DNA of 61,612 nt, taken from positions 1-61,612 of the IMG/VR virus record IMGVR_UViG_3300046313_000168, one strand, 5' to 3'. Below the pieces are notes generated by a model, which saw only the letters and a program-made list of their open reading frames with translations, made no database searches and was not told where the DNA came from. This document shows, one piece after another, positions 252 through 14,443 of the stretch; positions within the stretch are counted from its first letter, which is position 1, and each line of letters begins with the position of its first letter. The translations under genes were made by a program, and so were the position numbers. The DNA comes from a virus.

Positions 252-568
252 CTTACTGTCCAATAAAGTCGCTCAGCTTCACAGCTTACCCTCTTTACCC
301 GGTGTGCTCAGACACCCGCCTATATTCTCATACAGGAACAGACTATATCTTCACCCTCTGTATACAGTAGGGCGCTCTCCGCTTCGAATACCGCTAGGTA
401 TCCTACAGGTTGATAAAACCTTAGTCGTTGAACTTTACACATGGTTGATCAGAATCAACTTTAGCGTCTTAGCTGCTGATTGTCTCTACCTACTAATTTT
501 CAAACACGTTACGTATGTGTTTTCACACTCCGCTTTGGTTTAGTAGTCTAACAAGAGTTTCCAGCAAT

Positions 569-1588
569 TCAAAGAGATTCTTTGAAAAGTTTCTTTTCCA
601 AAGGACTTAACTGACTGTAATACACATACTTTCTACCGTCACGGTGAACCTTTGCTTCTTGGTTTAAACGCCAGTGTAAGGTAGTTATTTTAATACCATT
701 ATCGCTAGCGCAACTTGTGACAGACTTATATATTTTTCTTTCGTCTGTCAGACAGTTCCAAACAGTTATGACTTTACACCCTGTGAAATTTTCATAACTT
801 TCAATGAAATCTGTGTGTGTTACCCAAGGTATCGAATTATCATTAGGTTTAAGCTGAATAAAATTATCTATAACCGGCTGATCTTTGTTGTAAAACAACT
901 GAGAAACATAACCTGTGCTTAAGCCTAATTTTGACGATACTTCATTACAACTACTGTAGATAGTGATTCTTTCAATAGCTGGATATGTTCTCACCGCAAC
1001 GCTTTTGTTCCTACCGTAAAGTTTTTTCGCTTCTTCTAAATCTTTTATTTCAACCCAAGGTGTTTTATCTTTCTTCAGTTTGAATTGTTGACCAGATGGC
1101 GATAATCTTTTACCTAGGTATCTTAATCTGTATAAAACAGTATCCTTACTAACACCAAGATGTTTGGAACATTCAATGATGCTAGGGTATTCCGATATCA
1201 AACCACTTTTAACATCTCTTACTAAAATAGGTAAACACTTTCTACTTAAGTTGTTAAGACCTGCGTGTTCAACGTTCTGTTTAGGTGTTACGATTTCAAG
1301 ATTTTCAAGTGTGTTGTTGTGTTTATTACCGTCCTTATGGTTTACATACAACTCACCAAACTTTTCATAATCGCTGCAAATAAAACAAAACGCTATCAGT
1401 CTATGCAATCCCCAAGTTAAGGTTACGCCATTATCGGATGTTAATCTAATATTGGTGTAACCTGCTGGATTTATAGATCCTTTTAAAAACTTTTCTCTAT
1501 GAAACGAAAAAACTTTTCCATCTGGCGAGACTCTGTATTTAGAGTAACCTTTTGGAATCTTAAAATTAGGTGTATTACATTCAGTCAT
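569..1588 (-). CDS. Intron-encoded HNH homing endonuclease
   Basis: This 339-residue protein has the layout of phage intron homing endonucleases. A NUMOD4-like segment lies at about 8-70 (IPKGYSKYRVSPDGKVFSF). The HNH nuclease core follows at about 80-110, with YVNHKDGNKHNNTLENLEIVT including the His and Asn residues. Then come three repeated helix-turn-helix-type DNA-binding units of the NUMOD1/IENR1 kind, near residues 125-160, 205-240 and 275-310. It starts 26 bases inside the intron with SD GAGGAA. Such enzymes cut intronless alleles near the insertion site and so spread the intron. It is the only endonuclease gene among the three introns here, so it may also mobilise the other two, which is inference. 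Confidence 0.9.
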   Translation of the reverse strand: MTECNTPNFKIPKGYSKYRVSPDGKVFSFHREKFLKGSINPAGYTNIRLTSDNGVTLTWGLHRLIAFCFICSDYEKFGELYVNHKDGNKHNNTLENLEIVTPKQNVEHAGLNNLSRKCLPILVRDVKSGLISEYPSIIECSKHLGVSKDTVLYRLRYLGKRLSPSGQQFKLKKDKTPWVEIKDLEEAKKLYGRNKSVAVRTYPAIERITIYSSCNEVSSKLGLSTGYVSQLFYNKDQPVIDNFIQLKPNDNSIPWVTHTDFIESYENFTGCKVITVWNCLTDERKIYKSVTSCASDNGIKITTLHWRLNQEAKVHRDGRKYVYYSQLSPLEKKLFKESL

Positions 1589-1609
1589 ATACAGTTCCTC
1601 ACTGTATAT
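1587..1609 (-). promoter_or_regulatory. Hairpin over the endonuclease ribosome binding site
   Basis: A perfect 9-base-pair stem (ATATACAGT with ACTGTATAT) has the SD sequence GAGGA as its whole loop. The A and T of the ATG lie in the 3' arm of the stem. A similar hiding of intron-ORF start sites is known in T-even phage introns, where it limits endonuclease translation from the early precursor RNA. The structure is seen in the sequence; the regulatory role is inferred. Confidence 0.6.
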
Positions 1610-1614
1610 ATTTA

Positions 1615-4600
1615 ATCATCTTGACTACTACCTGGTGCAAGCATAGTGGCTGTGCTTACCATAGAAGCAGGTGTTACATTTTTATCAGCTTTGATAATCC
1701 CACGCATATCCTTAAAATTTGGATTAGACGAAAGATAGAAGTTGATACCCACGTCACCGCTGTCAACAGAAGCTTCAGAGACCACACCTACATCAGACAC
1801 ATGAAAAGCTCTGGTGGCTTTGTTCATGGATTCTTTACCACGACCACCTTCACCTACATATGTCACTATCTCAGACTCTTTCATGTTCTGGATAGGGTTG
1901 ATATCCTCTACTAACTTAATAGCAGGGTCTTTCATAATAGCTGACCATACAGCAAAAGGAGACATATCTATCTTGGATCTTCCAGAGATATTCTTATTCC
2001 TATACTGTCTTATAGCTGTAGATAATTGACTGTAGACTATGCCAGAGATACGCTCATAACCTCTGATACGCATGTGGTTTAGGTCTTGAGTATCTGGATG
2101 GCTGTAATCTACAAGCATCTCAGTAGACTTGACTAACAAACCTTCAAAAGTAACAGGCATGTTCATCTGCTCAAGTATGGTTTTAGTAATCCCATCTATA
2201 AACAGTTGACGATAGACATCCAGTTCACGTATGTATAGTGAGCTCAGAGATTTACTTTCAAACAAGTTGAAATAAACATCTTTGTCGTTATACATCTCTA
2301 CCGGATATTGTTTTAGAGTTTTCTCAAAGTCTAAGAAGCCAGAGAGTATTAAACTGGCTGCTTTCTGTTTCCTGCTGAATATGTAAGACACATCAGCAAA
2401 CTTCAAAGCGTATTCATCTTGCTGAAGATCCTTTTGGAACCTGCCTTCGACGACACGATACTTGGCTTTAAGAAGAGTCAGTAGTTTATCTAGCCCAATG
2501 TAGTACCCAAGCACTACACCGACAGGTATTGTCTTAGCAAATACTCTAAGCTCTGTAAAGTCTACAGGTGATTTGGTTTTATCTATCCCTAGCATGGTCT
2601 CTATATGACCTATGCTGACATATCCACCTGCTTTATAGATAAAGAATTCTTCAGTCTCAGCCATCACGATAGGTTCCAGCTTAGCTGTAAACCCACAGAC
2701 TATACTTCCGTTCTTCTCTATTTTAGCAAAGTCGTCAGAAATAACAGATCGATCTCTTTCATCAAAGATGAAAGTATTACCTGCTATCTTAAACGTTTTA
2801 TAGTTTTGAGACAGAAAGCTATAGAGGTAAGGAGCTTTAAGTAAGTTGTTATACACGTTAGCAGGACCCAGATCTGTAATGACAGGGTTTTCTAACATGC
2901 TTAACTTACTGATGTTTCTCAATAACCAATCGTAAGAGCTGTTGGCTTTCTTATCAGATACAGCCACAAACGTCTTACCGTAATAGCTGGTTAAAGCTAC
3001 TGTGATAGGGTCTATTTTGCGGATAGGTGTATCTACACGCTGTTTTCTGTAAGAGTAAGAAGACCCACCTACCTTCATCACTCCGTCTTCATCCACACAC
3101 GGTACTCTGAACCGTATCGTAGAAGCCATACCGTCTACAGGTTTAAACTGTACTTCATGTACATCGTAGGCACCCATGACACTACTTTCATTTCTGATCT
3201 CATAGCTGGTTATAGCTACACCAGCTTTCTGTAAACCAGACACCATCATCAACATGTCTTTCTTCATGACTTTGTTGATGTAAGCTTTATCAAAAGACTG
3301 TAAAGAAGATTCAGCCATCGTCTTGTCTAACATGTATTCAGACGTGACTATTTTATTGTCTTCTTCATTTAAAGTGACATCAGCTACTGTAACAGAGTTC
3401 AACTCAGAGATTTTCTTCTTGCTACCGTAAGGATCTTCTATGTTGTCAAATTCTTCAGCCAGCTTAACCATCTTTTTATAATCAGCTGCTGACAACCTAC
3501 CAGTATCAGCAGCAGCATCTATAGACATTTTAAGACTTTCTTTATAAGTCTTATCCCCATAGACTTCAGCTTGTACTTGTTCTTCTGTAAATACTCTCTT
3601 GAGTTTGGTTTCGGTAACTGCACCTTCACCATCTACAGATATGCCTTTCTTGGCTAACTTGTTCTTCTGTACAGTATCAGCTACTTTGACTTCTTCATCC
3701 ACTTGAGCCAATATAGCGTCAATATCTTTTATATCGTTTAAACCATCGTCTTCATCCTCAGAAACCTCAGGCTTTTTATCTGTGGTTTCTTTTGCTTTAG
3801 ACTTGGTAACACCATGCATGAAAGCATCTGATACCTCACCAGGTAGATCTACCTCATCATCGAAGTCAACAGACTCTGCATCCTGAACAGGATCTTCCAT
3901 CAAAGGTTCTTCTTCTGCAATCTCAGAAGAAGTATTCAGCTCCATCAAAAACTTCAGAAACAACTTCTGGATGTGGGTATCCTCAAGCTGCATAGTGTCA
4001 TTAAAGCCTGTTAGGTTGTTATGTCCTTTGATCCAACTAGACATATAACCTAAGTTAACGATAGAAGCTTTATTGGTTTTGTTAAAGAAAACGATGTTTA
4101 CTTTAGAAAGCTTGTCCTCAGTGATACCAGACAAAACACTTTGACCTGAGTTCTCTTTATCCAACCATTTGTAAACCTCAAGAACAAACAGTTTCTCAAC
4201 TGTATTAAATACAGTCAGTAAACCTGTACTAGGCTTGGCTTTAGAGAACTGTTCTAAGAAGCTAACTGCAGGTACCTCTTTAGGCACAGACATGAAGATA
4301 AAGTGATGCCTTCCAGATATCCCACAATCTTTAGACACGTTTTCAAATAACGTATTATAAAGATTCTTAAACTTGAAATAAGGCGTTGTAGCCAGATCCA
4401 TGTATTTATAACTCTCATGCAGATAGTTATAATTTTTCACGATTAAAGTACTGCTGTCTTTAACAACAGCTGTGGCTTCAGGTCTGTATTGAAACAGTTT
4501 GTTTTTCAGATGGAAATCTCTGATAGCCACTTTCAATACAAAAGGTACCTTCCTGGCACCACCTTCTGTAAAGTCCGACACAAAGACATAGTCAGTAGCT

Positions 4601-4785
4601 ATCCTGTTTTTAAAACCTTTGAAATAAAGCTTAGAAACATCAAGATCCATACCACCATCCATAGTGAGGTGGTGGTAAACAGAATCTCTGGGAAAGCTTA
4701 TGAAATCCACTATTTTTGGACTGACTAAGTTCTGTATGCGTCTGGTACCTGATTCTCTATAGAAGAGATTAAAAAGTTTTTGCAT
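1615..4785 (-). CDS. Virion RNAP beta subunit, 5' exon
   Basis: This is the large 5' exon (1057 codons) of a phiKZ-type beta subunit (gp178-like). The beta signatures lie in its second half. A segment near residue 575-620 (VDEDGVMKVGGSSYSYRKQ) matches the bacterial G-F-x-I-x-G stretch. Near 985-1045, a segment with R-x-FHVSDVG...NFYLSSNP corresponds to the TPEG/GL region. An acidic, low-complexity insert sits at about 295-365. The frame runs into a stop right after ...SSQDD, where intron A begins, and resumes at 251. The gene starts six bases after the beta' gene stops, so the two are an operon. Such polymerases travel in the virion and transcribe early genes. The exact boundary with the intron is inferred. 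Confidence 0.9.
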
Positions 4786-4790
4786 GTTGT

Positions 4791-4952
4791 TTAACCTGTC
4801 ATGTTGGCCAGTGTTAACTCAAGAACATCATCTCCAGCACTGAAGTTCATCTTGTTATTTACACCGACATAGAAATCTCTAGAATTTAATTTGTTTCTGA
4901 TCTCTAACTTAGACTCTTCAGACAGAACGCAAACTAAAGACATCGTATCACC
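4791..4952 (-). CDS. Virion RNAP beta' N-part, exon 3
   Basis: Fifty-three codons plus a stop, beginning GDTMSLVCVLSEESK and ending ...VLELTLANMTG. The opening GD completes the catalytic DFDGD motif, whose three Asp residues bind the active-site magnesium in all multisubunit RNAPs. The rest matches the stretch after DFDGD in bacterial beta' (x-M-x-V-H-V-P-L ... P-x-QDVVLGLYYMT). The subunit ends here, so, as in phiKZ, the remaining beta' must come from another gene not seen in this window. A continuous reading frame extends upstream to 5138, but that extension is intron sequence and should not be annotated as protein. Confidence 0.88.
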   Translation of the reverse strand, partial: GDTMSLVCVLSEESKLEIRNKLNSRDFYVGVNNKMNFSAGDDVLELTLANMTG

Positions 4953-5291
4953 CTTATTGTCCAGTAAAGTCGCTCGGTTATATAAACCTACTCTCTTTAC
5001 CCGGTGTGCTAAGACACCCGCCTGTACTTTCATACAGGAACAGACCATATCACCATCTTCAGCTTTATCTGGTAAGATGCTTCCCACTTCGGATCTGCTA
5101 GATCCTACTCCCTTACGGGATGGTCGTTGAACGTTCACCTATACGGTGCTTCGCTGCTGATAACCCAATCCTAATCTTTTCAAACCGTGGCTTTGGCTTT
5201 CGCCTCGCGGTGGTGATTAGGCTCTAAGGGTGTTCCAGCAATTCAAGAAGTTTTCATTACAGAATTTCTTCTATATGCGACAATGTTACTT
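4953..5291 (-). ncRNA. Group I intron C in virion RNAP beta'
   Basis: This 339-base intron has no internal gene. It runs from AAGTAACATTG (after the GAT of the micro-exon) to ...GGACAATAAG, ending in G at 4953. Conserved core strings appear in order: AATTGCTGG, TATCAGCAGC, GTTCAACGACCA, GATATGGTCTG. Its P7 pairing is GACCA with TGGTC, where introns A and B have GACTA with TAGTC. This is a matched base change on both sides and supports a real RNA helix. A short P1 helix (CGAU of the exon with GUCG, 10 bases into the intron) is possible. Most of the remainder is alignable with intron B. Confidence 0.87.
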
Positions 5292-5297
5292 ATCGAA
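5292..5297 (-). CDS. Six-base micro-exon (Phe-Asp) of virion RNAP beta'
   Basis: Only TTCGAT remains between the G that ends intron B (5298) and the start of intron C (5291). It encodes Phe-Asp. Joined between exon 1 (ending GGT GCT GAT, Gly-Ala-Asp) and exon 3 (starting GGT GAT, Gly-Asp) it restores GADFDGDTM, the catalytic metal-binding motif, in frame. Joining exon 1 straight to exon 3 would also stay in frame but would lose Phe-Asp and kill the motif. The exon is inferred from motif restoration and from two complete intron cores on either side of it. Confidence 0.83.
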
Positions 5298-5708
5298 CCT
5301 ATTGTCCAGTTACAGTCGTTCGGTTTCAAACCTATCATAAAGTAACCCGGTGTGCTTAGACACCCGCCTTTGGCTTTCCCAAAGGAGCAGACTATATCTT
5401 CACCCTCTGTTTATACAGTAGGGTGTTTCCCACTTCGGAGATACTATCTCCTACACCTTGCTTAAGGGTTAGTCGTTGAACTTTACGCATGGTTGGCTAT
5501 AAAGTCAACTTTAGCGTCTTAGCTGCTGATTACCCATTGTTACATTTAATCCGTTTTCAAACCTTGGCTTTGATTTTCATCTAGCGGTGGTGGATTAACT
5601 TTAGGGTGTTCCAGCAATTCAAGAAAAATCTCTTTAAATATTACTATTTAAGAGGACAATCGGATATAAAATATGAATACTTTTAACTCACTTTTTATAT
5701 CCTTTTTT
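5298..5708 (-). ncRNA. Group I intron B in virion RNAP beta'
   Basis: A 411-base intron without an internal gene, starting AAAAAAGGATAT after the exon-1 GAT codon and ending ...GGACAATAGG. The core shows AATTGCTGG, TAATCAGCAGC, GTTCAACGACTA and AAGATATAGTCTG in order, with the P7 pairing GACTA/TAGTC. Its first ~80 bases, A/T-rich, include a stop codon at 5688 that would end unspliced translation six residues past the splice site. It is clearly a paralogue of introns A and C. The exact 5' and 3' ends are chosen to restore the DFDGD reading frame. Confidence 0.87.
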
Positions 5709-7154
5709 ATCAGCACCCAATCTCCCAAGCTGCTTCACAGCGGGCGAGAACGAATTATAAAAACCATTTCCGTGTATGGGAAATTCAGCACAGACAAGTT
5801 CTGTAGGTTCCCAGTTATCATCCAGTAAAGTTCTGGTGTCAGCTTCTACTGTAGACTTCAGGTACACGTAGCTTGGATATATACTACCATACCCAGTGAT
5901 AGGGTAACGCGTAGCAAAACAAGGTATCTCTTCAGACCCGTGATAAACACTTAACATGATCAGCTCAGTTAAAGTGATAGGGCTCACTTCTTCTTTGCTG
6001 TATCTTTCAGGTAGTTCATCTATGTCTTGTAAGAATCGATATGTGTTGTCCTTACCTTTAAAGATCAATCCTGCGTAATGACCAGATATCTCTATATAGT
6101 CATGTCTTAGGTTCTCTTGTCCGTAAGTAGCAAAGACTTTCTCTAGACCTTCGTTGGTCATCCACTTATCGTACTCTTTACCATTGATAGGTACAGTTAC
6201 TTTCTTCAGAGTCTTTTTATCTACCAGTATCATGGGTGTGTTAGGTCCTGTAAAGACCTTAGACATAAACCCATCTCTTACGTTTCTAATAGAAAGAGGT
6301 AGAGTAGCTCTTAGAAACTGATAAAGACCCACCACAGTTTGTTCTGTGGAAACAGACTTAGGACCAAAGAGTTGTGTAGACTTACTTACATAAGAGGTAA
6401 TAACGTTTCTGGTAGAATGAAAAACTTTTCTACCTGCCCACTTACCTAGTATGAGTTTAGACTTACCTTCTAACAGATTCTTAATATACTCAAAGATCTC
6501 ATTACAAGCTATCTGTAGCTGAAACCTCATGTTGTTGAAATACTCAGCATTTAACTTAGAGTCTACCGTACCTATGACACCAGAAAGAGAAAGTACTCTT
6601 CTATAGAGTCCGTTGATCTCATCTTCGCTAGGTTGACTATTCTCATCTAGAGTATAGTCTCTCATACCAGCTGGCATCACTACAAACTTATCTATCAGAG
6701 CTTTACTGATATATTTATTTACCAGCTTAATATTAAACTCTCTCTTAGGAGATGGTCTGTCTTCAAACTTGATATCCTTATAATGCTTAACAAAGAAATC
6801 AAATCCAGTTTTACCTGTGACAGGATCAGACTTAACAAAGTCTTTAAGTTCTGTGTCAAAGACAGCGTAAGCTCTAGATGACATGATGTCACCGTAAAGA
6901 CTCTTAAGATCATAAAGAGCTTTAAAGATGATAGGATGGAAGATCTGGATGTTTAGATCTATATAAGAGAACATACGGTTTCTCTTCTCTTCCCCCACCA
7001 TACCGAACGTCTCAGTGCTGAATAAACCATCTGGATGAAAGTTCTTACTGAACCCGTCCATGATGTCAAGTACTTTAACAGGTCTTAAACTTCGAATGTC
7101 TAGATCTGCTAGGTTAAGCAAATCCAGGTTAAAGGGTAAAGAAGGTGATTGCAT
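5709..7154 (-). CDS. Virion RNAP beta' N-part, exon 1
   Basis: 482 codons from ATG (SD AGGATC) to ...LGRLGAD, where intron B begins. Recognisable beta' features are an N-terminal clamp-like start (SLRPVKVLDIMDGF...), a segment near residue 240-262 (KWAGRKVFHSTRNVITSYV) matching the bacterial [22 protein letters not shown] stretch, and the final N/GAD of the catalytic motif. With the micro-exon and exon 3 the spliced product is 537 residues, a gp180-like beta' N-terminal fragment. Without splicing the product would end six residues later and lack the active-site aspartates. It is the first gene of the beta'-beta operon and is divergent from the tail hydrolase gene, with 44 bases between the two starts. 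Confidence 0.9.
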
Positions 7155-7198: not shown

Positions 7199-10100
7199 AT
7201 GGCTAAGAATGTAAAGAAAAAATTACAACGTGATGAGTTTGATCTAGATAATGATCTAGACTTTGATGACTTTGGTATGGATGACATATCTTCCGAAATG
7301 TCACCAGAGTCTAGTAATTCTAAATCTAGATCCCCTGTCACGGAAGTTTTTAAAGGCACCATTTCTGGTGCTGCTGGGGAAGTGGTAAGGCCTGAGTTTT
7401 TAGCTAAGACTTTAGAAGGTGCTTTACCAGAAACTTTCTCTACCAGTTTCAGCACAGCTGATAAGGTAATAGACAAAACGTCTAAGCTATATGATGATAC
7501 TATCAGGGAATTAAAGCCCCAGCTTAATAACCTCGGTAGAAAAATCGATAAGCTGGTGCCTCAGGAAGAAGGTTTCCTGAGAAGAATGACAGATAAGTTC
7601 TTGGAAATGACTGGTGGTAAAGACCAGATTTCCAATTCTTCTTCTGAAGGTCAACTAGAACAAAGCATCAACAGCACAATAGCTGGAGTATTTGCAGCTA
7701 ATCAAGAAGCTCAAATACAGATGTCTGCTCGTTCTAACGCACAAGAGAATGTGCGTGAAGGCGTGGCTAAGAAACGTTTCGATAGCGAAATAGGTGTCTT
7801 AGGCGGTATCCACGATAACATAGCCAGATTGACCAGCTATAACGACACTGTAACTCAAGCTTATCAAAAGAAAAGTTTAGAGTTACAGCTGAGATCCTTC
7901 TTTGCTCAGAAAGAACTTTTAGACTTTACCAGAAAGTACCAAGAAGTATCCACTAAGCAATTCGAGGTCATCAGTAAGAACACGGCTTTACCTGAGTTTG
8001 TTAAGATACATCAGAGTGAACGGTTTAAAGAAGAATTACAGAACAGAGCTGTAAGTAAGATAACCAATAAGTTATTTGGCGATAATAGCTTTGTGGATAA
8101 CTTCTTTAAGCGTCTTACTCCTTACATAGGTGAGAAGGTTTCGGAGATAGCTCAGGGTATTGAGCAAGGTGCCGGTGCTATCGATATGATAGGCATGGGC
8201 GTGGAGACCAACAGATCAATGGGTGGGTCAGCCGCTAGTTTCTTTGGTGAGTCTATTGGCAGCATGGGGGCGGGTTACATAAGAGATCTTCTCACGCCTG
8301 AACTTAGAAAAGAAATTGAAAAAGAGTTTCCTGATCTGAAGATGACCGGTCAGAAATGGGCAAACCTTATAAAGAACCCACACGAGCTTCTTAAGAAATT
8401 CAGAAAATCTGATTGGCTGCAGGGCGGATTAAGTAGTGATAATATTGTTAAACGTCTAGCTGCCGAGACTCTGAGCGACATGAGTCACATGGGTGATAAT
8501 GAAGGACTCAAAGATTCAATAAGCGCTAGAAAAATTTATGCTGGTGATGTTCCAGGAGTCGAACAACATACCAACAGCAAGATGTTTGTTAGCGTTACCG
8601 AGATTATACCTGGCTATTTAGCCAGGATGTATCGAGAACTTAAGATCGCTAACGGTGGTGGTGAAACAACACCTCTGACTGTCTTTGATGAAAAGGCAGG
8701 AGAGTTCAAAACTGAGGATAAACTTAAAAGCGATGTTTTAGCCAATTTGGAAAAAACAGCTAAAGATTCTTCTACGTCTTTTAACCGTAAATTAAAAGAC
8801 GTTACATCTGCAATACTAGGTAATGAAAGCACACCTGAGGAACAAGAACAGACAAACAAGTTCTTGGCGGGATTCACTTTTGAGAATTCAAGTGATACTT
8901 CCATGCAGGCTATGTTTGACAGTAAATCTTTTAAAGATCTTCCGTCAAAGATTAGAGAAAAGTTAACAGAGAAACTATTCCATAAATTAGGGGCTGAAGC
9001 CAACCCTGAGCGTGAGGGTAATAAAGGTAGAATGATGAAGGATCTGGAAGAACTCAGATCCATGGCTCCTAATATACAAGGTACTATCAACGATCACCTT
9101 ATGGCTAACCAAACTTCCGCGTTCAATGAACTCGGTATAGTTAAAATGGATAGTGGTGGTAAGTGGAGTCTTGATAGTGACAAATACAAAGATTGGTTAT
9201 TAAAACAAGCTGAGTCTGAACGATTAGGTACGTCTGACATCAACGCCAAAACTAATATTACTAACTTTAACGGAGTGCAGCTTCCTGGACATAATGGTAA
9301 ATCTGTGCTTGAAAGTTTAAGCAAGACTGGTATCTTTAATTGGAATTACAAGAAGGGTCTTGGGGAAGACACAGAGAATGCTAAGATAGGTCCTATGGCC
9401 CAAGAGGTCAAAGCCAATTTTGGTAACGCTGCTGCTCCAGATGGTAAGAAAATAGATCTGGTTAGCATGAACGGTATAGCCATGGCTGCCATCAAAGAGT
9501 TAGATGGTAAGGTATCTAAAGTCATAGATAACAAACCTGAAAACGTCGACGATATCTTGGAAATGGCTAAGGTACAGACAGACTATCTTAAACAAATATC
9601 TGAGAATACCAAACTAACCAATGAGAAGATGGATAACCTAGGTAAATTGACTTTACTCAATATACCTGGTATAACTATCAACAGAAACTTCTTTAAATCC
9701 ATAGGTAGTTCTTTCATGTCAGCTGGTAAGCTGATTAAAGACATGACCATAGGGACTGGTAGATTTGGACTTAAACTCACAGGTGGTATATTAGGCGCTG
9801 GGTTAAAAGGCGCCGGATCTGTGGTGGGTGGTCTTTATAAGAACAAAGATAAAATAGATTCTGGTATACGCACTGTTGGCAGATTAGGAAGAGACCTTAT
9901 TACTAACGTAGGAGATATGGCTTATAAAGGTGCAGAACGCTTAGGCGGTAGCGTTTTTAAGATGGCTGCGTCTTTGGTAAGAGGTACCGTGAATCTGTTT
10001 ATCGATACAGATATTTATATTAAAGGTGAACTTGCTCCTCGTATCAAAAAGATATTGGTGGAGTCTGGTGAGTATTACGATAAGCAATCTGGAACCGTCA

Positions 10101-13100
10101 TTAAGAAGTTCTCTGATATCAAAGGTGATATCGTAGATAAGTCCGGCAACATTGTTATATCAGCAAGTGATCTGGCTAAGGGTTTAGTAGACAGACATGG
10201 ACATCCTATCAAAACCATGTTTAAGAGCATGTTTGGTATGGCTGCTTCTACTATCAAACTTGGTGCTAAGGTAGTAGGCGCTGTGGCGTCTGGTGCTTGG
10301 AAACTGGCTACTAAGGGTATTAAAGGCTTTAGAGATGGCGAATTTGGAATAGGTTTCGGTAACACTAAGATCTTCAACGTACTTGTAGAGATCAGAGATC
10401 TACTTAAAGGTCCTGTCTCTAAAAGTAAAAAGAAGAAAAAGAATGGTAAGAACGAACCCATTGCTAAAGCTGAAGAAGTCAAACAAGATAACGACGACGC
10501 TTTTAAAGAACTTAAAGATATCTTTAAGTCAAGTCCACAAGGGCAAAGTCTTTTAAAGTTCGCTTCTATATTCGATCCCAGACTGAGCGACGATAATGAA
10601 TCCACTGCTGATGGTGATAAGCCTAAGAAGAAAGGATTCTTTGCATCTATGCTAGACAGGATAGATGCTGCTTCTGACGCTCATGACGAACGTGTAAAGA
10701 AGTTCAAAGAAGGTCTTGATCAAAATAAAAAAGAAAACTTTGTCGGTCCTATGCCTGAGAAGAAAGGTTTGTTTTCAAAGCTATCTTCATACGCTAAAAA
10801 GACTAAAGATAAACATGACGAACGTTTGCAGACTCTAGCAGATCAATACAATCAGATAAAGAATGGTGGGTTTGTAGGACCCATGCCTCAGAAATCTGAT
10901 GGAAAAAAAGGTCTCATGGGTAATGTATTCTCTACAGTCAAGAAACAATACGAAAAACTAAACCCAGCTTTTGTCGGCCCTATGCCACAAAAACAAGAAC
11001 AGAAATCCATGTTCAAGAGAGCTGGTGAGTATATCAAGAAAGCCTCAGACGAACAAAAAGCCAGGATGGTTGTTTTAGCTGAACAGCATGAACAGCTTAA
11101 AAATGGTGGTTTCGTCGGCCCTATGCCTAAGAAGAAGAAAGGATTCTTCAGAACTGTCATAGGTGATATGGCCAGTGACTTTAAAGAAAATCGCAAAGCT
11201 ATAAAAGAACACGCTCAGCAACAAGCTGAAAAGAATAAAGAGTCTAAACCTTCTATACAAGAATCTTCAGAACAGAACACCCCGGACGGTGAAAAGAAAC
11301 CAGGTTTGTTTTCTAGAGTGAAGAACGGTATAATGGGTAAGCTTGCTGGTAAGCCAAAGGCTACTATCAAGATGCCTGGTAAAGCTGATAAAGGCACTAC
11401 TGCTGAACGGTTAGCTAGAATAGCTGCCAAGAAAAAAGAAAAAGCCGGTAAGTTCAATGACGCGGATGGTGACGGAAGACGCTCTGGTTCCTGGATGGAT
11501 ATATTCGACAGGAATAAAGATAAAACTTCTCAACAGAATCCTGCAGCTAAGGGTAAGACCAACGCAGATCCAGACATGACTGTTAAGTACAAAGACGGTA
11601 ATGGACTTGGGTCTATAATGAGTAAACTCATGGGTGTCTTGTCTGGAGCTGGGTCTTTGATATCAGGCGCTTTCTCTATTTTCGGTACTATAGGTAAACT
11701 GGGTAAAGGTTTAATGACCATGGGTAGAGCATTACCTTTAGCTAAGACTGCCATGACTGCATTAAGAGCAGCTCCAGCTATAGCCAGTGTAGTAGCAGCT
11801 GGTACCATGGGTGGCGGCTTAGCTACTGGTCTTGCTGTTGTGGCTGGAGTGGGTAGCTTCTTAGTAGGAGCAGCCCCTTACCTTTTAGCAGCTGGTATAG
11901 GTTATGGTGCCTACAAAGGTGTTAAATACTTAATGAGGAACAACCTCAACAAGTATGAAAAATACAGAGCTTATCAGTACGGTTTTAGTAACTCTTCTGG
12001 TGATAGTCAACACCATCACAAAGTCATAGAGCTTGAAAATCTTATCATAGAGAAACATTTAGCTGTCTCTAACGGCGATCCTAAGATAGCTTCTTCTTTG
12101 GATTGGAAAGATGTTTCTAATATCTTCGGTGTGAACATAGAAGACAAAGAACAATTCGATAAACTGAAAACTTGGTTTAAAGATCGTTTCAGAGTATTCT
12201 TTATCAACCACCTTAGAGTTTTATACAACATAGACAAGAATGCTTCCTTAAACAAGGTAGACAAGCTTGAGCCTAGTAACAGAAAGCGCTATCTTGAACT
12301 CTCTAGTTTTGATGACGGTCCGCATGATGTAAAGACAAGTCCTGTTAAGGATGTGCCTGAGTTGAGCGATAACCGTGAGATCATCAAAATAGAAATTAAG
12401 AACCTACTCGCTTCTACAGCTGTAGATATTAAATTAGAACCCACTAAAGTAATTGATTCTTCAGGTAAGGTGAAAAGAGAAAAAGCTCCTTCATTAGAAC
12501 CTAAGAAAGAAGACAAAGATCTGATTAAACCACCAGCTGCTAAAACCCAAAACACAAAAGCTGTAGAGGGAACAGAAGATGGTAAAACAGAACCTAAAAC
12601 CACTAATACAGATAGTACAGGTTCTTTAGGTGGTATGAAGACACCTGGTCTGGCTAATGGCCCTATGAGGGATGGTAGCACAGGTATGCAATTCATCTCA
12701 CTGAAGCCAGGTGTGGATATAGAAAATCTACATCCAGAAGTTCGTAAGAACCTTTTGGCTATGGCTCAGGAATACGGTGAGATAACAGGTAAGTCTATAT
12801 CTCTAAACGATGCGTTTAGATCTTACGAGAAACAAGCTGAAATACACAGAAGATCACCTGGTACATCAGCAGCACCTGGTAAGTCTTTACATGAATTTGG
12901 TTTAGCCATGGATGCCGACAGAGGCATTATGAATGAACTAGATAAGTTAGGACTCATGAAGAAATATGGTTTCACTCGTCCTGTGGGTAGTGAACCATGG
13001 CACTTTGAACCAGCTGGTATACAAATGGCTCTGATGGAATCTAAAAAGAATCCAGCAGTAGCAGCAGATCTTATTAATTACGGTGTGGGTAGAGGCGGTG

Positions 13101-14443
13101 GTGGTTACGGCACCATTATGCAAGGTGGTCTAAAAGGTCGTAATCACGCAATGGCTAAAGCATTATTAGACGCTACTGCCAACGGAACTATCAATAATCA
13201 GTTAACTGAAGAAGACGTCAACTTAGCTGGTAAAGCTATGTCTGATAAACCTTTAGATAAACCAGCTGCTAAGACTGAGGAAATATCTATAGGCGGAGCA
13301 TCTTCATTTGACGCTATGGGTAACTTTACAGGCATGGATGATGGGTCGACTATCAAAGCTGCTAAAGCTCCTGCATCTTCTGTTCTCAGAACAAATGCGA
13401 GCAATAGCACTTACGATGCCTTGGGTAATGTTACTGGTAGTGAAGATGGTAAGATACCGCAGACAGATACTGTCAGCAAGACAGATGTGCCTCTAGATAT
13501 AAACGCAGCTATGCAAAAAGCCGCATCGCAAACAGGTGTGGATCTTAATCTGCTTAAAACCTTTGCTACTTTGGAATCTAACATGAATCCAAATGCAAAG
13601 AATCCAAACTCTTCGGCTACTGGACTATTCCAGTTTACCAAAGGTACTTGGATGGAGCAGATAAAGAAATATGGTAGAAAATACAACTTGGGTCAGGATG
13701 CCTCTCCAACAGATCCTTTGTCAGCTAGTTTAATGGCTGGTGAATATATCAAAACTAACCTAGATACTCTATCTAAAGTAAAACCTAATCCAGATGACTT
13801 AGATTTGTATCTGGCACATTTCTTAGGACCAGCAGGGGCTTCTAAGTTTCTGTCTGCTCATCCTAACGTACCAGGTTCTCAATTGTTCCCAGCTGCTGCC
13901 AGTTCAAATAAAGAAATTTTCTTTGATGGTAGAAGACCAAGAACACTGGCTGAGATATACGAACTGTTTAAGAAGAAGGTTAGTAAAGCCGGCGGTAAAG
14001 CTTTGGGTGCATTAAAAGCCAAGGTTGATTCTGTTACAGGTTCTACCCCATCTGCTACGACAACTTCTGCTAAACCAAGTACAGAGAGTGCAAACTCTTC
14101 TTCTGGTATACAAAATGCTTCTTATCAGGATGTGCCTCAGAAGAAATCTTTTACAACTTTCCAACAGGCTCCTGACTTACAATCAGCTGGTAAAGCCAGC
14201 TCTGAGCTTGGTAGAAATACCATGCCGGATCTTAATATTGTGAATAATAGCTTAGGTGAATCACTGAGTGTGCAAAAGCAAATGCTGGATGTACTCAGTA
14301 AGATACATGGATTAATTTCCAATAAAGGCAGTGGTGGTAAATCAGATTCTGATTCTGAAACTCCTGCGGCTCGTCCGTTGGGTAACAGTAAGAAAGAATC
14401 TCTTCCTAACCCTGCTTTAGATTTGAGAAGAAGATCCGCATAA
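7199..14443 (+). CDS. Giant tail-associated murein hydrolase (M15 peptidase plus lytic transglycosylase)
   Basis: At 2414 residues this is the phiKZ gp181 type of virion protein, also by position next to beta'. Visible parts are: an acidic N-terminus; a segment at about 672-745 resembling the S74 intramolecular chaperone (SDINAKTNI...FNWNYKKG...IGPMAQEV); Gly/Ala-rich hydrophobic stretches near 870-930 and 1480-1580; and four FVGPMP repeats near 1180-1303 between charged helical stretches. A VanY-like M15 peptidase follows at about 1835-1945 (SLHEFGLAMD and PWHFE, zinc and catalytic residues). An SLT-type transglycosylase lies at about 2100-2210 (ATLESNMNP with the catalytic Glu, then ATGLFQF). 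It probably opens the peptidoglycan during DNA entry. SD AAGGA. Confidence 0.9.
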   Translation: MAKNVKKKLQRDEFDLDNDLDFDDFGMDDISSEMSPESSNSKSRSPVTEVFKGTISGAAGEVVRPEFLAKTLEGALPETFSTSFSTADKVIDKTSKLYDDTIRELKPQLNNLGRKIDKLVPQEEGFLRRMTDKFLEMTGGKDQISNSSSEGQLEQSINSTIAGVFAANQEAQIQMSARSNAQENVREGVAKKRFDSEIGVLGGIHDNIARLTSYNDTVTQAYQKKSLELQLRSFFAQKELLDFTRKYQEVSTKQFEVISKNTALPEFVKIHQSERFKEELQNRAVSKITNKLFGDNSFVDNFFKRLTPYIGEKVSEIAQGIEQGAGAIDMIGMGVETNRSMGGSAASFFGESIGSMGAGYIRDLLTPELRKEIEKEFPDLKMTGQKWANLIKNPHELLKKFRKSDWLQGGLSSDNIVKRLAAETLSDMSHMGDNEGLKDSISARKIYAGDVPGVEQHTNSKMFVSVTEIIPGYLARMYRELKIANGGGETTPLTVFDEKAGEFKTEDKLKSDVLANLEKTAKDSSTSFNRKLKDVTSAILGNESTPEEQEQTNKFLAGFTFENSSDTSMQAMFDSKSFKDLPSKIREKLTEKLFHKLGAEANPEREGNKGRMMKDLEELRSMAPNIQGTINDHLMANQTSAFNELGIVKMDSGGKWSLDSDKYKDWLLKQAESERLGTSDINAKTNITNFNGVQLPGHNGKSVLESLSKTGIFNWNYKKGLGEDTENAKIGPMAQEVKANFGNAAAPDGKKIDLVSMNGIAMAAIKELDGKVSKVIDNKPENVDDILEMAKVQTDYLKQISENTKLTNEKMDNLGKLTLLNIPGITINRNFFKSIGSSFMSAGKLIKDMTIGTGRFGLKLTGGILGAGLKGAGSVVGGLYKNKDKIDSGIRTVGRLGRDLITNVGDMAYKGAERLGGSVFKMAASLVRGTVNLFIDTDIYIKGELAPRIKKILVESGEYYDKQSGTVIKKFSDIKGDIVDKSGNIVISASDLAKGLVDRHGHPIKTMFKSMFGMAASTIKLGAKVVGAVASGAWKLATKGIKGFRDGEFGIGFGNTKIFNVLVEIRDLLKGPVSKSKKKKKNGKNEPIAKAEEVKQDNDDAFKELKDIFKSSPQGQSLLKFASIFDPRLSDDNESTADGDKPKKKGFFASMLDRIDAASDAHDERVKKFKEGLDQNKKENFVGPMPEKKGLFSKLSSYAKKTKDKHDERLQTLADQYNQIKNGGFVGPMPQKSDGKKGLMGNVFSTVKKQYEKLNPAFVGPMPQKQEQKSMFKRAGEYIKKASDEQKARMVVLAEQHEQLKNGGFVGPMPKKKKGFFRTVIGDMASDFKENRKAIKEHAQQQAEKNKESKPSIQESSEQNTPDGEKKPGLFSRVKNGIMGKLAGKPKATIKMPGKADKGTTAERLARIAAKKKEKAGKFNDADGDGRRSGSWMDIFDRNKDKTSQQNPAAKGKTNADPDMTVKYKDGNGLGSIMSKLMGVLSGAGSLISGAFSIFGTIGKLGKGLMTMGRALPLAKTAMTALRAAPAIASVVAAGTMGGGLATGLAVVAGVGSFLVGAAPYLLAAGIGYGAYKGVKYLMRNNLNKYEKYRAYQYGFSNSSGDSQHHHKVIELENLIIEKHLAVSNGDPKIASSLDWKDVSNIFGVNIEDKEQFDKLKTWFKDRFRVFFINHLRVLYNIDKNASLNKVDKLEPSNRKRYLELSSFDDGPHDVKTSPVKDVPELSDNREIIKIEIKNLLASTAVDIKLEPTKVIDSSGKVKREKAPSLEPKKEDKDLIKPPAAKTQNTKAVEGTEDGKTEPKTTNTDSTGSLGGMKTPGLANGPMRDGSTGMQFISLKPGVDIENLHPEVRKNLLAMAQEYGEITGKSISLNDAFRSYEKQAEIHRRSPGTSAAPGKSLHEFGLAMDADRGIMNELDKLGLMKKYGFTRPVGSEPWHFEPAGIQMALMESKKNPAVAADLINYGVGRGGGGYGTIMQGGLKGRNHAMAKALLDATANGTINNQLTEEDVNLAGKAMSDKPLDKPAAKTEEISIGGASSFDAMGNFTGMDDGSTIKAAKAPASSVLRTNASNSTYDALGNVTGSEDGKIPQTDTVSKTDVPLDINAAMQKAASQTGVDLNLLKTFATLESNMNPNAKNPNSSATGLFQFTKGTWMEQIKKYGRKYNLGQDASPTDPLSASLMAGEYIKTNLDTLSKVKPNPDDLDLYLAHFLGPAGASKFLSAHPNVPGSQLFPAAASSNKEIFFDGRRPRTLAEIYELFKKKVSKAGGKALGALKAKVDSVTGSTPSATTTSAKPSTESANSSSGIQNASYQDVPQKKSFTTFQQAPDLQSAGKASSELGRNTMPDLNIVNNSLGESLSVQKQMLDVLSKIHGLISNKGSGGKSDSDSETPAARPLGNSKKESLPNPALDLRRRSA

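Follow-up and report, generated by a model that had tools for sequence, protein, structure and literature searches.

The window, i.e., the whole stretch of DNA analysed here, from a giant bacterial virus (61,612 nt; IMG/VR record IMGVR_UViG_3300046313_000168), carries on its minus strand (7154-4791) a homologue of PHIKZ180 (gp180 family), the beta'-N gene of the phiKZ-type virion RNA polymerase (RNAP). The features assigned to this gene and to the adjacent virion RNAP beta gene, with the coordinates of the two guides counted by hand, are as follows:

5709-7154, minus strand: virion RNAP beta'-N exon 1, 482 codons, ending ...LGAD with GAT as the last codon (PHROG 2986; splice join)
5298-5708, minus strand: group I intron 1, 411 nt, without a long ORF (RF00028, 82.0 bits; ends from the restored frame)
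5655-5659, minus strand: predicted internal guide of intron 1, UUGUC, pairing with GAU-AA at the 5' splice site, with a long P1 extension hairpin above it (minimum-energy fold)
5292-5297, minus strand: exon 2, TTCGAT (Phe-Asp), 6 nt, identical in contigs L009, L010 and L011
4953-5291, minus strand: group I intron 2, 339 nt, without a long ORF (RF00028, 79.1 bits; splice join)
5278-5283, minus strand: predicted internal guide of intron 2, UUGUCG, pairing with CGAU-AA (minimum-energy fold, pairing count)
4791-4952, minus strand: exon 3, from GDTM... to the stop, 54 codons including the stop (splice join)
1615-4785, minus strand: 5' exon of the virion RNAP beta gene, ending ...GSSQDD (PHROG 3148; E-value, 9.7e-278)
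252-1614, minus strand: group I intron 3, in beta after two Asp codons, 1363 nt (RF00028, 85.8 bits)
569-1588, minus strand: HNH/NUMOD4 homing endonuclease ORF inside intron 3 (Pfam NUMOD4, HNH_3)

Exon 1 of beta'-N belongs to PHROG 2986, RNA polymerase beta subunit (E-value, 6.9e-165), and for exon 3 a profile search detected a homologous C-terminal tail in L063, an identical contig. An earlier note on this DNA had read two complete group I cores at 4953-5708 from the letters alone. Those coordinates proved exact, and the covariance-model search that it had called for returned matches to the full model RF00028 (Intron_gpI, positions 1-253; gathering score, 50) on the minus strand at 5686-5368 for intron 1 (82.0 bits; E-value, 2.5e-19) and at 5301-5021 for intron 2 (79.1 bits; E-value, 1.9e-18). 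The joining of 7154-5709, 5297-5292 and 4952-4791 gives a single frame of 537 aa with GADFDGDTM, and the catalytic DxDGD of beta'-N is present only once both introns are joined out. When exon 2 is omitted, the join reads GADGDTM, and when intron 2 is retained, a stop follows right after GADFDK; the proposal that only the double splice restores the motif thus stands. The intron ends were placed by the frame and the terminal G, with exon 1 ending in ...GCTGAT, exon 2 reading TTCGAT and exon 3 starting with GGTGATACGATG. In both introns, the U at the 5' exon end pairs with a guide G, and the intron ends in G. Both lengths are multiples of three, and both introns hold stops in the continuing frame, so that an unspliced message would be unable to make the enzyme. 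Neither of them harbors an endonuclease ORF, as no long ORF is present in either. In four uninterrupted homologues the motif is found in one piece, as GADFDGD in FLC9, Eowyn and BONAISHI, and as NADFDGD in FLC6.

The same double intron is present in contigs L009 (526 and 364 nt) and L010 (409 and 339 nt) of IMG/VR, with TTCGAT unchanged in both and with exon 1 proteins that are 85% and 81% identical to that of the window, respectively. A longer contig, L011, has both introns and TTCGAT, and shows no difference from the window along the 13,154 bases compared; it probably represents the same phage. The same anatomy and the same six bases in two phages diverged to this extent (81-85%) indicate that the arrangement is neither an assembly error nor recent. 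Judged by frame, homology and conservation, the six-base exon between two group I introns, as read in the earlier note, is real. A scan for the double-intron junction pattern returned 48 stretches, namely, the three known contigs and 45 without nearby core signatures, which apparently arose by chance.

A homologue of the nuclear shell protein PHIKZ054 (26% identity; E-value, 1.7e-23) is encoded in an identical 164-kb contig (G001), and also in the contig of L009. By the presence of this gene, the window phage is classed with the nucleus-forming phages (chimalliviruses). No PHIKZ054 homologue was found in the 120-kb contig of L010, which is possibly incomplete.

In the intron tree, the intron 1 sequences of the window, L009 and L010 group together (support, 0.992). 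Intron 2 of the window groups with that of L010 (0.949), and intron 2 of L009 joins them at just 0.263, a weak placement that fits its mosaic make-up. In the intron alignment (341 columns), the site-1 intron of L009 is identical to the beta-gene intron of the same genome at 68/68 positions of columns 31-112, compared to 47/75 for the site-1 intron of the window. Outside these columns the relation is reversed, e.g., 17/39 vs 37/37 in columns 197-240. Introns within one genome appear, from such comparisons, to trade parts by module exchange or gene conversion. The introns that share the 68-position identical block are located at 7644-7932 and 11956-12228 of L009, in different genes of one genome.

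The match of intron 3 also spans the full RF00028 model (1-253), and the beta gene reads GSSQDD-GKRVNF when this intron is joined out. The product of the HNH ORF inside it shares 37.5% identity with PhiPA3 gp210 across 325 aligned positions. PhiPA3 gp211 reads ...GSMNDD before its last residues, and the site of intron 3 matches the place of the gp210 intron in PhiPA3.

Relatives of the virion RNAP were collected by three overlapping alignment-led scans (78, at least 80 and at least 80 loci) together with nine annotated phage stretches. The resulting 226 loci comprise 172 uninterrupted, 34 interrupted and 20 unscored ones. By a 300-nt key, 130 distinct sequences were defined (105 uninterrupted and 25 interrupted), a biased sample rather than a rate, since the scans were seeded with interrupted loci; among the 20 loci without a key, 18 read as uninterrupted and two (L136 and L137) are unjudgeable. 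All three relatives from the genome collection are uninterrupted. The 25 interrupted sequences contain 29 introns, which, with the end of the first Asp codon taken as 0, are located at +0 (18), +1 (3), +2 (1), +6 (4), +9 (1) and +12 (2), i.e., at six insertion positions within 12 bases at DFDGD. A script check confirmed that 28 junctions in 24 sequences restore DxDGD, with L067 read by eye. The junctions of the relatives end in exon-T and intron-G in 28/28 cases, a count that is partly by construction, because the frame, together with T/G at offset sites, guided the choice of register. In L076, introns at +0 and +12 leave a 12-nt exon between them, and a P1 of seven pairs is predicted for the second intron.

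Our own intron profile, built from 13 introns, found a core in all of the interrupted sequences (25/25), although matches to those surveyed sequences that had contributed to it are by construction. The Rfam gathering score was reached at the junction in 14/25, and the remaining 11 (L067, L100, L105, L119, L130, L141, L196, L219, L231, L268 and L281) rest on our own profile. The first Asp codon is GAT in 20/25 interrupted vs 14/105 uninterrupted sequences (Fisher p, 2e-10, with kin sequences counted as independent). In the 15 genomes with a +0 intron outside the window clade (a set including L076 with its second intron at +12), GAT encodes the first Asp in all 15 and the second in 6 (p, 7e-4, kinship ignored). 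The excess of GAT at the first Asp codon is consistent with a requirement for U at the 5' splice site. DFDGD thus stands out as an intron hotspot of phiKZ-like phages.

In the beta' gene of L067, a stretch of 46 nt (6353-6398; TAATG...TTTAG) lies between TTTGAT and GGTGAT and ends in G after an exon U. It is too short for a group I intron, and the only group I core found in the gene lies after GGTGAT. Translational bypass was rejected by eye, as GGT has no matching landing codon before it; a search for relatives gave L067 itself alone.

Among the isolated phages, 60 of the 244 listed annotated records were examined. The phiKZ genome (AF399011) matches an interrupted LC locus at 99.7% over 1843 nt, and PHIKZ180/179 has at this same site its own full Intron_gpI match (92.2 bits). 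At least 80% of this phiKZ stretch is carried by 10 of the 47 matching phage records, duplicates included. In the annotation of AF399011 (186178-188020, within L294), PHIKZ180 ends at GAD, and the FDGDTVSF exon after the PHIKZ179 gene is unannotated. In Klebsiella phage phiKp_32 (L141), a single interruption with a weak core (27.4 bits by our own profile) is found at +6, the site of window intron 2. An intron that is 85% identical to window intron 2 over about 131 nt was seen in Pseudomonas phage PAP02 (Litunavirus; L004 1510-1735, minus strand), where it sits between pieces annotated as RNA polymerase large subunit.

The non-virion polymerase is interrupted at the same motif. In phiKZ, gp55 is interrupted between APN and ADFDGD, with PHIKZ056 inside and an Intron_gpI match of 75.6 bits. 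The published structure, as described in PMC8287921, contains 417-DFDGD-421 of gp55, which, the origin of the expression construct aside, supports removal of the intervening sequence. The gp55-type gene in the contig of L009 (G002; L312 79060-80580) is split by four group I introns (370, 342, 339 and 347 nt), each of which exceeds the Rfam cut-off, with internal exons of 102, 12 (PNAD) and 9 (FDG) nt, and its joined exons restore APNADFDGDALNV. In the contig of the window phage (G001; L313 154641-152285, minus strand), two introns, one of them 1991 nt long and with a long ORF, flank a 21-nt exon (PNADFDG) of the gp55-type gene. A 9-nt exon (YDG) was found in a distant phage (L363), the first intron of which reaches the Rfam score and the second is recognized by our own profile alone. 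In L340, a 12-nt exon (DFDG) lies between two Rfam matches, and the last exon is outside the locus. Upstream of this pair, a third, weaker Intron_gpI match (6038-6352; 52.5 bits) is present in the same gp55-type gene. Altogether, 64 distinct gp55-type sequences include 47 uninterrupted and 16 interrupted ones, and one that ends with its contig. Cores were found in all 16 interrupted sequences (weakly in L334, 11 bits), and the joins were examined in four of them.

In G001, the 164-kb contig of the window phage, seven group I matches were detected, two each in virion beta', virion beta and non-virion beta', and one in non-virion beta; every one of them thus lies in a polymerase gene. The beta introns are located after SSQDD, between GVGD and K, and between HGG and KGVV (the last two joined by eye). 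The latter two sites fall in the catalytic-lysine region known from bacterial RpoB. G002 has nine group I matches and G003 five. In G003, the introns at 6778-7068 (L319) and 10262-10563 (L318) interrupt a thymidylate synthase gene and a DnaB-like helicase gene; confinement to polymerase genes thus does not hold generally.

Minimum-energy folding of the window introns places P1 of intron 1 (GAUAA/UUGUC) beneath a long extension hairpin. The same is predicted for L010, where the hairpin is retained with its sequence changed on both sides; intron 1 of L009 did not take up this P1 in its minimum-energy structure. For intron 2, the predicted P1 (CGAUAA/UUGUCG) pairs CGAU of the 6-nt exon with GUCG in all three phages. 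P10 is in register for intron 2 alone (GGUG/CAUU with exon 3 in the window and L010; GGU/ACU in L009), and for intron 1 merely an offset UCG/CGA was found in the window. According to the earlier note, the splicing order may be forced. This is not borne out by the predicted pairing: P1 of intron 2 needs only four of the six exon bases, thus intron 1 need not leave first. Since the 3' end of intron 1 and P1 of intron 2 use the same six bases, the two introns are probably excised sequentially, with either order allowed.

Based on sequence anatomy, homology, conservation and predicted pairing, from which we infer self-splicing, its order and entry by homing, the locus very probably holds two independent group I ribozymes six bases apart, each excising itself, and a micro-exon born of a homing hotspot. 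Intron 1 would find its 5' site by its own P1 (GAU of exon 1 with GUC), and intron 2 by its own as well (CGAU of the 6-nt exon with GUCG). Each would splice itself with the 6-nt exon included, to give a mature message reading GAD-FD-GD. The double arrangement would have arisen because the DFDGD codons are a homing hotspot: introns would enter behind its Asp codons or a few bases away, and two occupied neighbouring sites would leave a micro-exon between them. Entry by a homing endonuclease is suggested by the PhiPA3 system and by the HNH gene carried in intron 3, the product of which resembles gp210 (37.5% identity); as introns 1 and 2 have no long ORF, the enzyme was possibly supplied in trans.

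A rather unlikely alternative is that introns 1 and 2 act together, so that the 6-nt exon is left out of at least some messages; an in-frame, dead GADGDTM would then be made, and the skipped fraction would tune the amount of polymerase. For Twort orf142, skipping of an exon that lies between similar group I introns has been published (PMC10136302), and SIOphi is reported to skip an internal exon (PMC11878797); introns 1 and 2 share a core, and both 5' sites end in GAU. The guide of intron 1 can form three pairs with exon 1 and just as many with the 6-nt exon. The guide of intron 2 makes four pairs with the 6-nt exon and four with exon 1, two of which are G.U. Such ambiguous pairings make skipping to GADGDTM, presumably a dead product, possible, and some of it may occur. 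However, the guide of intron 2 prefers the 6-nt exon (C-G replacing G.U), the long P1 extension may well keep intron 1 at its own site, TTCGAT and the reading frame are kept in all three genotypes, and a motif without FD is expected to be inactive.

A recent local origin, in which intron 2 would be a copy of intron 1 that reverse-spliced into the next GAU, six bases on, is improbable. GAT does recur every six bases in GCTGAT-TTCGAT-GGTGAT and UUGUC is found in both guides, but the cores of window introns 1 and 2 match at 185/303 positions, whereas those of intron 2 from the window and L010 match at 259/266; intron 2 is thus closer to that of another phage than to intron 1 of its own genome. 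Moreover, phiKp_32 has an intron at the second site alone, which indicates that this site can be entered independently. An inactive gene or an assembly artefact, with the motif supplied by another copy, is scarcely credible even though the window is a fragment and virus records may be incomplete, because the same structure occurs in three diverged genotypes with the exons homologous and in frame, and the second intact beta'-N copy named in the earlier note as a counter-finding is absent from the 164-kb contig of the same phage (a contig of unproven genome completeness).

Beyond two independent ribozymes at one locus, we tentatively consider that the active-site codons of both polymerases could be a saturated intron landing zone in this nucleus-forming clade, with the motif spliced from pieces of 6-21 bases and up to four introns per gene. 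The phage nucleus, by separating transcription from translation, would keep ribosomes from disturbing the folding of such tightly packed ribozymes, and the activity of the polymerase could be gated by how efficiently they splice.

A micro-exon between group I introns is an already known kind of structure (placozoan cox1, Armillaria, Twort, Coxiella), and the view expressed in the earlier note that no case with so short an exon had been described has to be abandoned: placozoan mitochondrial cox1 is reported in PMC5436844 to have a 1-nt exon between two group IB introns. In that gene, as in the window, two group I introns isolate a micro-exon needed for a conserved residue, but the exon is of 1 nt, mitochondrial, between group IB introns and supported by RNA-seq, whereas that of the window is of 6 nt, in a phage and predicted from sequence. 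Exons of 12-15 bp are described in Armillaria mitochondria. Among the phage and bacterial cases in the literature consulted for which a length is stated, the shortest exons are those of Twort (23 nt) and Coxiella (34 nt) (PMC10136302). Introns 2 and 3 of Twort orf142 are likewise two similar group I introns of a phage gene with a short exon between them; however, that exon is 23 nt long, the gene is another one, and exon skipping was shown by experiment. Multi-intron genes with exon skipping are described for Twort, Coxiella and SIOphi (PMC10136302, PMC11878797), and a small exon of phiNIT1 is mentioned in PMC11878797 with its length unstated in the relevant passage.

With regard to polymerase genes, the PhiPA3 gp210 intron is reported as a group I intron with an HNH endonuclease in virion RNAP beta (PMC11620839). 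Like window intron 3, it carries an HNH gene and follows conserved Asp codons of the virion RNAP in a chimallivirus, but it is a single intron of the beta gene, with no micro-exon and outside DFDGD of beta'. The phiKZ loci PHIKZ180/179 and PHIKZ055/056 resemble the window in that an ORF-bearing group I intron lies at DFDGD or next to it in each of the two polymerases, but they have one intron each and no micro-exon. A literature search, mainly of titles and largely of open-access papers, found no publication on introns in the DFDGD motif. In PMC7598289, the only one of the papers searched where DxDGD, intron and phage occur together, the sections concerned speak of introns solely as a proposed past cause of split genes. 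As far as the literature searched shows, the novelty lies in the location, in its recurrence in two polymerases and in exons of 6 to 12 nt in phage genes.

The locus offers a natural test of two ribozymes that share six bases, and of splicing fidelity when both splice sites end in GAU. In these phages a universal active-site motif is unreadable straight from the DNA, which leads to mis-annotation, e.g., of PHIKZ180 in AF399011, which stops at GAD, before the catalytic FDGD. The distribution of the introns points to active sites of polymerases as a recurrent target of intron homing, which would connect them with the interference competition among phages that has been shown for PhiPA3.

Next to beta'-N in the window, the adjoining ORF (7199-14443) encodes an SLT transglycosylase domain. 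The gene order lysin, beta'-N, beta met in the window is shared with FLC6 (transglycosylase) and phiKZ (endolysin); the neighbour of beta'-N is unnamed in Eowyn and called a tail fibre in PhiPA3.
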